Source of the DNA: a bacterium
GTDB taxonomy: Bacteria; CSSED10-310; JAJRTK01
Assembly (NCBI GenBank): GCA_024278345.1
Contig: JAJRTK010000004.1
Coordinates: 1-5,380, forward strand
Reading direction: 5' to 3'
Length of the DNA: 5,380 nucleotides
Part shown: positions 2,719 through 5,380 of the stretch, piece after piece
Numbering within the stretch: position 1 is the stretch's first letter
Layout: every line of letters starts with the position of its first letter
The notes under the pieces: generated by a model
What the model was told of the DNA's origin: nothing
Seen by the model: only the letters and a program-made list of their open reading frames with translations
Databases searched by the model: none
Program-made: the position numbers and the translations under genes

Positions 2719-5380
2719 ATGCCAAGTGAAAAAGCGCATTCCGACAGGCAGGCTCCTGGTGGTTCCTTCGATTCGAAGAGAATCATTGCACCCTTTTTGC
2801 CTCCACACCTGGTCCGGAGCAAGACGGCGAAAAATCGCCAACCGCCCTTCTCGGAACACCTGGACGCCGCCATGCTCTTTTCCGACATCAGCGGCTTCAC
2901 CGCTCTCACCGAGTCCCTCTGGAAAAGCGGCCGGGCCGGCGCCGAAGAGATTGCGGCCATCATCAACCTCTGTTTCGATCCCGCCATTGCCGCGATAGAG
3001 AGAGAGGGCGGCAGCATCACCAGCTTCGGCGGCGACGCCATCTTCTCCCTCTTCCTCGGACGCCGCGCAGCCTCCCGCGCACTGGCTGCCGCCCGGGCCA
3101 TCCGCGATTGGTTCCACCGGAACGGGCGGCTCGAGACGAGCCAGGGAACCGCCCACGTCGGCATCTCCCAGGGCCTCCACCTCTCCCGCGTCCGGGGAAT
3201 CCACCTGGGCACCCCAGAACAGCGACACTACCTGGTGGCCGGTCCCGGCATCGCCGCGCTCCTCCGCTGTGAAGCCGCCGCCAACGCCGGCGAGATCCGA
3301 CTCTCCAGGGCTGCAAGGAAGCGCCTCCGGCAAGAAGAAGATGGAGGGCCGGCCGCCCACCGACCCAGGGAGGGCGCTAAGACAAGCCACGAGCCAGCCC
3401 GCCGCGCCCTGGAGGCGCACCGCCATCCCGGCGGCCGCGGGCCGGAGGCGGACCTGGAACCCAACGAACGCGCCCTGGAGGCGAACTTGGCACTGGATGG
3501 GCGGCGGGCGCCCGGGGACCAGCCAACGCCAAGGAGCGGGGGAAACGCCCAAGGAGGCCCGGGACTCCAGGAAGCCCCGCAAGGGCGCCTCCCGGCCAGC
3601 GAGGGGGACGCTCTGGACGCGGCCGCTCTCTACCTGCCACCCTATCTGCCGCCCCTCCTGGACAGATACAAAGGTGCCTTCCGCCGCGCCGCCGTCCTCT
3701 TCCTCGAAACCAAAGGCTGGTCCCTTCCTCGCCTCCAGGCCTTCTACCTCGACTTGACCCGAAAACTCCGGGACCACGGCGGCGTCCTCTGGAAGACCGA
3801 CGTCTCCCTCCACGGCGTCAAGTGGCTCTGCATCTTCGGCATTCCCCAGGCCCACGAGCGGGACGCCGAGCGGGCCGCAAGAACGGCCCTAGCCCTGGAG
3901 CCGCCCAGGGGCCTTGACTGGCGCGGCGGGCTCCACGAAGACGTCCTCGCCAACCTCATGATTGGAACCGACTCCCGCAGGGCTTTCGACGTCATGGGCG
4001 ACGTTATCAACACTGCGGCCCGCGCACTGGGGCAGGCCGAATGGGGGAGCCTCCTGGCCACCGAACAGGCCCGCCCAAGACTGGGAGGCATCCAGACCCA
4101 ATCCTTCGGCCGCCGGCGGGTCAAGGGCAAGGCGGCGCCCCTCCTCCTCCACCGCCTCGTCCGGGCAGAAGGCGTCCAGGCACGCCGCCTCCAGGTGAGC
4201 TTTCCCCTGGTGGGCCGGCAAAAGGAGATGGACACCCTGGAAAAGGCCCTCCTCGACGCCAGGGAGGGGCGAGGCTCCGCCACAGGCATCGAGGGCGCCG
4301 CGGGACTGGGCAAGAGCCGCCTGAAGTGGGAAACCATACGCCTGGCAAAAAAGATGGGCCACGCAATCCACGAAGGCCGCGCCATTCCTTTCGGCGGCAC
4401 CGCGTTCTGGGCGGTGAGGGAGCTCCTGGGCCACCTGCTCGGCCTGGGGGACGTCTCGGCGGAATGGAGCCGGGACGCGGTCCTGGAAAAGGTCCGGGAA
4501 GCAGCCCAACGCCTGGGCCTCTCCAGAACGGACCGCCACCACCTGGCCAACGTTTTCGGCTTCCGCTTCGACGACTCCGCCCTCCGCCACCTGGACGGCA
4601 AGGCCATCCGCCTCAACAACATGCTGGCCATCAAGAACACCGTGACGGTCGCCGCACGCCATGAGCCGCTCCTCCTGGTCCTGGAGGATCTCCACTGGGC
4701 CGACGAGGCCACCCGCGAAGCCGTGACCTGCCTCGCCAAGGGCATCACCTGGAGCAAGGCCCTCCTTCTCCTTCTCTACCGCCCCGAGTACCAGCCCCCC
4801 GATCAGGTTCGGGAGATCGTCCTGCCAGAGCTGTCCGGAAAGCTGGTGCGGGAGATGCTTTCCGCGCTGCTGGGAGAGCTCACGGATGAGATTGCAGCTC
4901 ACGTGGTGGAGAGATCCGGAGGCAATCCCTTCTACGTGGAAGAGCTGCTACGCTACATGCTAGAGTCGGGATGGTTGGCTCCATCAGATAGCGAGTACAT
5001 GTTGACAAGGTCGCCGGAATTGGAAGAATTCCCGGGGAGTCTCGAATCGCTCATCACGGCGCGGCTGGATCGCCTCAGCAAAGAAGCCCGGCGGATCGTC
5101 GAGTTGGGGGCGGTCATCGGGCGAAGCTTCCTCCTAGAGCTACTCCCCTGGTTGCATAACGACCAAAAAGTGACCGACCGGGCGTTGCTGGAAATTCGGG
5201 AGAAGGAGATCGCCTTCGAGAAAACACCAGAGCCACGCCGAGAATACATTGGCCTCGGTCATGGTACCGGCCACGGTGCAGATTTCAGACGCCGCCCCAG
5301 GGCTTCCAGCCCTGGAACCCGGCGGAGGCTCTGCCTCCGGACCTCCGCTGGGAGCGCCGCTCCCAGACCCACGCCAGGGA
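2719..5380 (+). CDS. Tandem class III adenylate cyclase / P-loop ATPase, soluble adenylyl cyclase-like; 3' part displaced
   Basis: This single frame stays open for 887 codons to the window edge. Each cyclase domain follows an LPPxL lead-in (residues 24-28 and 306-314). Domain 1 (about 50-200) has the metal aspartates Asp56 (LFSDISGFT) and Asp106 (SFGGDAIF) but Leu172 and Ala179 where the adenine-binding and Asn residues belong. Domain 2 (about 322-482) lacks the metal aspartates (Glu330, Ser363) but has Lys359, Asp424, Asn431, Arg435 and VKGK at 468-471. Together they should form one cAMP-producing site, as in ADCY10. A low-complexity linker covers about 205-297. The NTPase domain (about 495-844) has VGR at 498-500, Walker A GAAGLGKS at 526-533, Walker B LLLVLEDLHWAD at 651-662, RPEY, GNPFYVEELL at 735-744 and ITARLDRL at 779-786. 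No signal peptide or membrane segment is seen, so it should be cytosolic. Homology stops after REYI (844, base 5250); the next 43 codons read repeat DNA, and the usual C-terminal half (often TPR-like) is not in the window. The product may be truncated or non-functional. Confidence 0.9.
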   Translation, partial: MPSEKAHSDRQAPGGSFDSKRIIAPFLPPHLVRSKTAKNRQPPFSEHLDAAMLFSDISGFTALTESLWKSGRAGAEEIAAIINLCFDPAIAAIEREGGSITSFGGDAIFSLFLGRRAASRALAAARAIRDWFHRNGRLETSQGTAHVGISQGLHLSRVRGIHLGTPEQRHYLVAGPGIAALLRCEAAANAGEIRLSRAARKRLRQEEDGGPAAHRPREGAKTSHEPARRALEAHRHPGGRGPEADLEPNERALEANLALDGRRAPGDQPTPRSGGNAQGGPGLQEAPQGRLPASEGDALDAAALYLPPYLPPLLDRYKGAFRRAAVLFLETKGWSLPRLQAFYLDLTRKLRDHGGVLWKTDVSLHGVKWLCIFGIPQAHERDAERAARTALALEPPRGLDWRGGLHEDVLANLMIGTDSRRAFDVMGDVINTAARALGQAEWGSLLATEQARPRLGGIQTQSFGRRRVKGKAAPLLLHRLVRAEGVQARRLQVSFPLVGRQKEMDTLEKALLDAREGRGSATGIEGAAGLGKSRLKWETIRLAKKMGHAIHEGRAIPFGGTAFWAVRELLGHLLGLGDVSAEWSRDAVLEKVREAAQRLGLSRTDRHHLANVFGFRFDDSALRHLDGKAIRLNNMLAIKNTVTVAARHEPLLLVLEDLHWADEATREAVTCLAKGITWSKALLLLLYRPEYQPPDQVREIVLPELSGKLVREMLSALLGELTDEIAAHVVERSGGNPFYVEELLRYMLESGWLAPSDSEYMLTRSPELEEFPGSLESLITARLDRLSKEARRIVELGAVIGRSFLLELLPWLHNDQKVTDRALLEIREKEIAFEKTPEPRREYIGLGHGTGHGADFRRRPRASSPGTRRRLCLRTSAGSAAPRPTPG
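5297..5380. repeat. Evenly spaced array of small hairpins with 3-base loops
   Basis: Three perfect hairpins, each with a triloop, start 25-26 bases apart: 5297-5315 (8-bp arms CCAGGGCT/AGCCCTGG), 5323-5339 (7-bp arms CGGAGGC/GCCTCCG) and 5348-5366 (8-bp arms CTGGGAGC/GCTCCCAG). The last bases, CCAGGGA at 5374-5380, are spaced like the left arm of a fourth, cut off by the window edge. The arms differ between units while spacing and loop size are kept, which implies selection or a copying mechanism acting on structure. The array lies in the cyclase reading frame just after its homology ends. Confidence 0.8.

Follow-up and report, generated by a model that had tools for sequence, protein, structure and literature searches.

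A probable ADCY10-type soluble adenylyl cyclase gene in a bacterium, with aspartate at the adenine position and interrupted by a MITE-like element

The window analyzed in this study is a whole stretch of 5380 bp, which corresponds to the complete contig C23 (JAJRTK010000004.1) of a 6.06 Mb genome in 550 contigs. An open reading frame (ORF) starts with ATG at position 2719 and continues to the contig end, and its translation contains two cyclase homology domains (CHD1 and CHD2) and an AAA domain in that order. The features are listed below, with residues compared to those of mammalian soluble adenylyl cyclase (sAC; ADCY10).

2719-5250, + strand: cyclase gene, surviving frame of 844 codons (CHD1, linker, CHD2, AAA/STAND-like ATPase) that ends at the insertion; from the ORF, translation and paralog identity
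2791-3318, + strand: CHD1 (C1-type), residues ~25-200; phmmer match to ADCY10 17-187, pLDDT ~90
2884-2886, + strand: Asp56, metal ligand equivalent to ADCY10 Asp47; phmmer, invariant in 86/86
3022-3024, + strand: Ser102 at the ADCY10 Lys95 (bicarbonate) position; alignment, Lys95 role from PMC12867704
3034-3036, + strand: Asp106, metal ligand equivalent to ADCY10 Asp99; phmmer, invariant in 86/86
3166-3168, + strand: Ser150 at the ADCY10 Lys144 (pyrophosphate) position; survey column, Lys144 role from PMC12867704
3319-3630, + strand: long, low-confidence linker between CHD1 and CHD2, residues ~201-304; pLDDT <50 over model residues 191-297
3631-4143, + strand: CHD2 (C2-type), residues ~305-475; Pfam PF00211, ADCY10 C2 alignment, pLDDT ~90
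3793-3795, + strand: Lys359, purine contact equivalent to ADCY10 Lys334; phmmer, column with Lys 30/86 and Arg 25/86
3988-3990, + strand: Asp424, aligned with ADCY10 Thr405 and matching the Asp of membrane cyclases; Asp in 4/86 only
4009-4011, + strand: Asn431, equivalent to ADCY10 Asn412; 85/86
4021-4023, + strand: Arg435, equivalent to ADCY10 Arg416; 85/86
4204-4743, + strand: AAA_16 P-loop ATPase domain, residues 496-675; Pfam PF13191, E 7.7e-17
4294-4317, + strand: Walker A motif GAAGLGKS in the AAA_16 domain; sequence
5243-5250, + strand: 8-bp target-site duplication AATACATT; identical 8 bases directly after the element on contig C474
5251-5380, no strand: MITE-like element, first 130 of 201 bp, within which the contig ends; ~40 genomic places, inverted repeats, 8-bp duplications

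Several other features were observed upstream of the cyclase gene. Two Uma2-type genes at 342-1262 and 1368-1720 share 91% identity over 280 bp. The second breaks off near position 1720 and passes directly into the interior of a glutamine amidotransferase (asparagine-synthetase-like) gene in reverse orientation at 1730-2311, and this junction reflects either a rearrangement or a join made during assembly. Positions 2429-2502 hold a REP-like hairpin repeat (GCTCCCGTCGGCGG...CCGCCGACGGGAGC), which occurs in at least 35 other genomic places.

When the first 534 residues were searched against all PDB sequences using phmmer, human ADCY10 was the best match (E 1.8e-12). A profile of the C23 protein and 23 relatives matched ADCY10 across both domains (E 9e-54). 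Pfam identified Guanylate_cyc (PF00211) in CHD2 at residues 362-472 (E 1.3e-07). Domain 1 was not reported by PF00211 at E 0.1, and CHD1 was therefore defined by the ADCY10 alignment and the structure instead. Two cyclase homology domains within one soluble chain, as expected of an sAC-type protein, were found by phmmer, Pfam, the profile and the model, and a P-loop/STAND-type ATPase (AAA_16) follows C2.

The surviving frame and the intact paralog C203 (1316 aa) are 62% identical across 776 aligned codons, and the linker between CHD1 and CHD2 is shorter in the paralogs than in the C23 protein. TPR-like repeats are visible by eye in the C-terminal part of C203, and this part is cut off and seems mostly lost in the C23 copy. 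Dozens of proteins of ~1100-1400 aa matching the AAA/TPR-like half are encoded across many contigs, which represents an unusually large STAND-like regulator set.

The earlier note had assigned Asp56 and Asp106, 50 residues apart, to domain 1, and Lys359, Asp424, Asn431 and Arg435, the last three spaced by 7 and 4, to domain 2. All six were confirmed in the ORF starting at 2719. Asp56, Asp106 and Lys359 fall on ADCY10 Asp47, Asp99 and Lys334 by phmmer, and the ADCY10 Thr405, Asn412 and Arg416 columns hold Asp424, Asn431 and Arg435 in the profile alignment. Both metal Asp residues are located in C1 and the purine Lys, Asn and Arg in C2, which is the sAC-type arrangement. The roles of Asp47, Asp99, Lys334, Thr405 and Arg416 in ADCY10 are described in PMC12867704 and PMC12250328.

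The further claim that each domain lacks what the other has was correct for most counterparts. Those of Lys, Asp/Thr and Asn are missing from domain 1, which has Ser102, a hydrophobic residue and Ala179 instead, and the counterpart of Asp106 is missing from domain 2. However, the counterpart of Arg435 in domain 1 is still an arginine (Arg183), and the residue of domain 2 that corresponds to Asp56 is Glu330. With these two residues in place, the second, decayed site is not wholly bare.

In ADCY10, Lys95 and Arg176 are the bicarbonate residues and Lys144 binds pyrophosphate (PMC12867704). Thr at the adenine position is held to predict bicarbonate regulation (PMC12867704, PMC12250328, PMC3383692). 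The bicarbonate residues are absent from the C23 protein, with Ser102 for Lys95 and Leu182 for Arg176, and Asp424 replaces the predictive Thr. Two findings go beyond the earlier note, namely Ser150 in place of the pyrophosphate-binding Lys144 and the cut of the reading frame at 5251.

The structure was predicted by AlphaFold2 without templates from an alignment of 24 sequences only, with the linker unmodelled. The model showed a pTM of 0.73, with both cyclase domains near pLDDT 90. The superposition on ADCY10 proposed earlier covered 372 residues, with both domains in a single superposition (Z 38.6, TM ~0.66, rmsd 3.0), and ADCY10-like head-to-tail C1/C2 packing was found in the predicted model. 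Among the solved structures compared with the model, the membrane cyclases AC5, AC8 and AC9 ranked after ADCY10 (Z 29-33). An ordinary membrane cyclase was rejected since ADCY10 is closer by both fold and sequence. The model predicts, without proving it, a head-to-tail pseudo-heterodimer as in ADCY10. Together, the profile and the predicted fold support the claim of an ADCY10-type intramolecular C1/C2 pseudo-heterodimer with one complete residue set.

Bacterial sAC-type cyclases were reportedly described by Kobayashi, Buck and Levin in 2004. Our survey included 86 aligned tandem-cyclase proteins of bacterial origin, drawn from many families; of the last 40 loci, about half yielded no usable reading frame, and the 86 proteins are a sample biased toward query-like sequences. 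The tally omits rows L057, L158 and L160-L162, in which domain 1 was unaligned or the architecture doubtful. The metal Asp pair in domain 1 was present in all proteins (86/86 at each position), and Asn and Arg in domain 2 were each present in 85/86. The Lys334 column contained Lys in 30 and Arg in 25 of the 86 proteins, and the Thr405 column contained Thr in 64, Ser in 11, Asp in 4 and other residues in 7. At the Lys144 column, Lys (53/86) or Arg (19/86) was found in 72 proteins. The full set of Asp, Asp, Lys/Arg, Thr/Ser/Asp, Asn and Arg was present in 54/86.

A split site peculiar to the C23 protein was rejected by this survey. As judged from the aligned residues, the split is the rule among bacterial tandem-CHD-AAA proteins. 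Lys95 and Arg176 occurred together in none of the 86 proteins, and one or both of these bicarbonate residues are also missing from the sACs of non-mammalian animals (PMC12867704), so their loss in itself is not rare. The sAC-like Plasmodium adenylyl cyclase beta displays the same residue split, and earlier bacterial work is cited in that report (PMC3383692).

Asp at the Thr405 position was found only in the C23 protein and in C203, C156 and C377, all of one genome, and this variant is new within the sample. The Thr405 column of the survey supports the earlier proposal that Asp424 is a membrane-cyclase-like adenine residue. The three other paralogs, which are 42-64% identical to the C23 protein, also keep all six catalytic residues. 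The Lys95 position of the four Asp-type proteins is Ser/Thr/Ser/Gly, the Arg176 position is Leu or Ala, and the Lys144 position is Ser in all four.

In a tree built without the columns of residues 359 and 424, and for which the root was not inferred, the Asp-type four formed one clade (SH-aLRT 100) that adjoins the Thr-type proteins L115 and L121 (support 80). Since they form one clade among Thr-type proteins, the most parsimonious interpretation is a single change from Thr to Asp. With Asp424, the protein departs from class IIIb, which has Thr or Ser at the Thr405 position, although its nearest relatives belong to class IIIb. Conversely, the Lys359/Asp424 adenine pair is that of class IIIa, but the closest kin are not class IIIa, as ADCY10 is top by sequence and fold and the clade lies among Thr-type proteins. 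We tentatively suggest, at rather less than an even chance, that a single swap from Thr to the membrane-cyclase Asp occurred in one little-sampled lineage, in which the bicarbonate Lys and the pyrophosphate Lys were lost, and was followed by expansion to at least four paralogs. A further tandem-cyclase paralog on contig C455 (L012 3192-6905, - strand) has a second domain in which the two purine positions are Gly and Ala while Asn and Arg are kept; it is probably an inactive or altered relative.

The similarity of the C23 gene to its paralogs ends at codon 844. The frame beyond 5250 was rejected as genuine protein because the sequence is a mobile element. Contig C474 starts with the same element, completes the 201 bp with the inverted end, and then continues with the next cyclase codons. 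The empty site in the intact C203 is GAGTACATCTTCAAG, and the inverted ends of the element are GGCCTCGGTCATGGTA. The element is also present in full length (201 bp) on C506 and on C413, in both cases between perfect 8-bp repeats. Copies were located at C23 5251-5380, L043 890-1090, L044 37-237 and L039 1-158, and the ~40 genomic places are often contig ends. The element is short and multicopy, has terminal inverted repeats and a target duplication (3 copies), and carries no gene, as is typical of MITE-like elements. Internal palindromes are abundant in it (DNA fold z -3.0). Many contigs of the assembly are broken by this 201-bp element.

We infer the joining of C23 and C474 from the common element and the target duplication, not from a read. 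The element and the duplication add up to 209 bp, resulting in a frame shift with a stop soon after. The cyclase remnant on C474 is short and ends shortly before another high-copy repeat, and the TPR half of the C23 gene seems to be lost as well. The longest product of the gene would thus be a truncated CHD-CHD-AAA protein. A second dispersed high-copy repeat of ~150 bp was observed at L039 510-760, directly behind the cyclase remnant, and a similar stretch is present near position 120 of C23 (tcgcttatgctcggcgtctcgc).

The frame-shifting insertion after codon 844 and the loss of the TPR half are what would be expected if the C23 copy were a plain pseudogene that yields no working protein, which is compatible with active intact paralogs. 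On the other hand, all 844 codons are open, and identical residues are present in the intact paralogs. Furthermore, the dN/dS of the C23 copy versus C203 was ~0.15-0.18 in each of CHD1, CHD2 and the ATPase, with dS near saturation, and these low values suggest that the protein was constrained until recently, before the insertion. The human truncated isoform sACt consists of approximately the two cyclase domains alone and is active (PMC12802110). We consider a plain pseudogene a serious prospect, somewhat below an even chance.

For the gene family as a whole, we regard it as probable that the locus represents an ADCY10-type bacterial soluble adenylyl cyclase gene with one interface site, of which the C23 copy is interrupted and the intact paralogs are likely working enzymes; activity, ATP specificity and regulation are what we infer. 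Among these paralogs, C203 and C156 are the probable working enzymes. In the proposed mechanism, two non-equivalent CHDs would fold head-to-tail in one chain to form a single catalytic site where they meet. Domain 1 would supply the metal-binding Asp56 and Asp106, and domain 2 the adenine-reading Lys359/Asp424 and the transition-state Asn431/Arg435, while the second, pseudo-symmetric site would have decayed. The C-terminal AAA/STAND-type ATPase, followed by TPR-like repeats in the intact paralogs, probably gates the cyclase. The product is likely to be cAMP, which may be read by some of the nine proteins with cNMP-binding domains in the genome. ADCY10-like bicarbonate control is unlikely, since Lys95 and Arg176 are lost in the Asp-type four. 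The loss of the pyrophosphate Lys (Ser150) means that catalysis may be weak or altered and that activity is not assured, and the Ser150-type enzymes may be weak, altered, or ATP sensors.

In an alternative reading, the Asp-type proteins would be dead or nearly dead ATP-binding regulators, in which the tandem fold serves to sense ATP and to control the AAA/TPR part instead of producing cAMP. There is a precedent in 6yii of Pseudomonas aeruginosa, by its PDB title a two-domain class III cyclase-like ATP-binding protein (Z 24.9). Ser150 in place of the pyrophosphate Lys in 4/4 paralogs and the related C455 of the same genome, without Lys and Thr/Asp, also agree with this reading. However, four paralogs retain all six core catalytic residues, with the other three being 42-64% identical to the C23 protein, and a mere ATP binder would not need all six. 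We consider such regulators unlikely. That the product is cGMP or another cyclic nucleotide is very improbable: guanylyl cyclases also belong to class III and sequence gives no certain substrate specificity, but Lys and Asp occupy both purine positions in 4/4 paralogs, which is the adenylyl signature, and the residues typical of guanylyl cyclases at these positions are Glu and Cys or the like.

These results highlight that the animal sAC architecture is common to bacterial tandem cyclases, and the survey shows the generality of the split site in bacteria. In one clade, Thr gave way to Asp at the adenine position, whose residue is held to predict bicarbonate regulation, and the bicarbonate and pyrophosphate residues changed with it. 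The Asp clade is thus a natural test of whether the adenine residue or the neighbouring basic ones set the bicarbonate response and the catalytic rate. If the single swap is true, the IIIa/IIIb division was crossed by one change inside the sAC clade, and the Asp-type proteins would be natural bicarbonate-blind sAC enzymes.

Compared to known systems, 6yii resembles the C23 protein in having two cyclase-like domains in one bacterial chain, but it is clearly further from it than ADCY10 (Z 24.9, 14% identity). The membrane cyclases AC5, AC8 and AC9 share the C1a/C2a pseudo-heterodimer and the Lys/Asp adenine pair (Z 29-33), whereas the C23 protein has an AAA domain instead of membrane domains and matches them less well in fold and sequence than ADCY10. 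The bacterial sAC-type CHD-AAA-TPR proteins of Chloroflexota, Acidimicrobiaceae and others, mostly 1200-1470 aa, are similar in domain order, size and residue split, but in most of them the adenine position is Thr/Ser and the Lys144 position is Lys/Arg, in contrast to Asp and Ser in the Asp-type clade. Unlike mammalian ADCY10 (PDB 4clf/8co7), the C23 protein has Asp for Thr405, lacks Lys95, Arg176 and Lys144, and contains a long linker, and its gene is interrupted. It nevertheless shares with ADCY10 the C1-C2 tandem followed by a P-loop region, the Asp47/Asp99 pair in C1 with Lys334/Asn412/Arg416 in C2, and a predicted fold that superposes over both domains.
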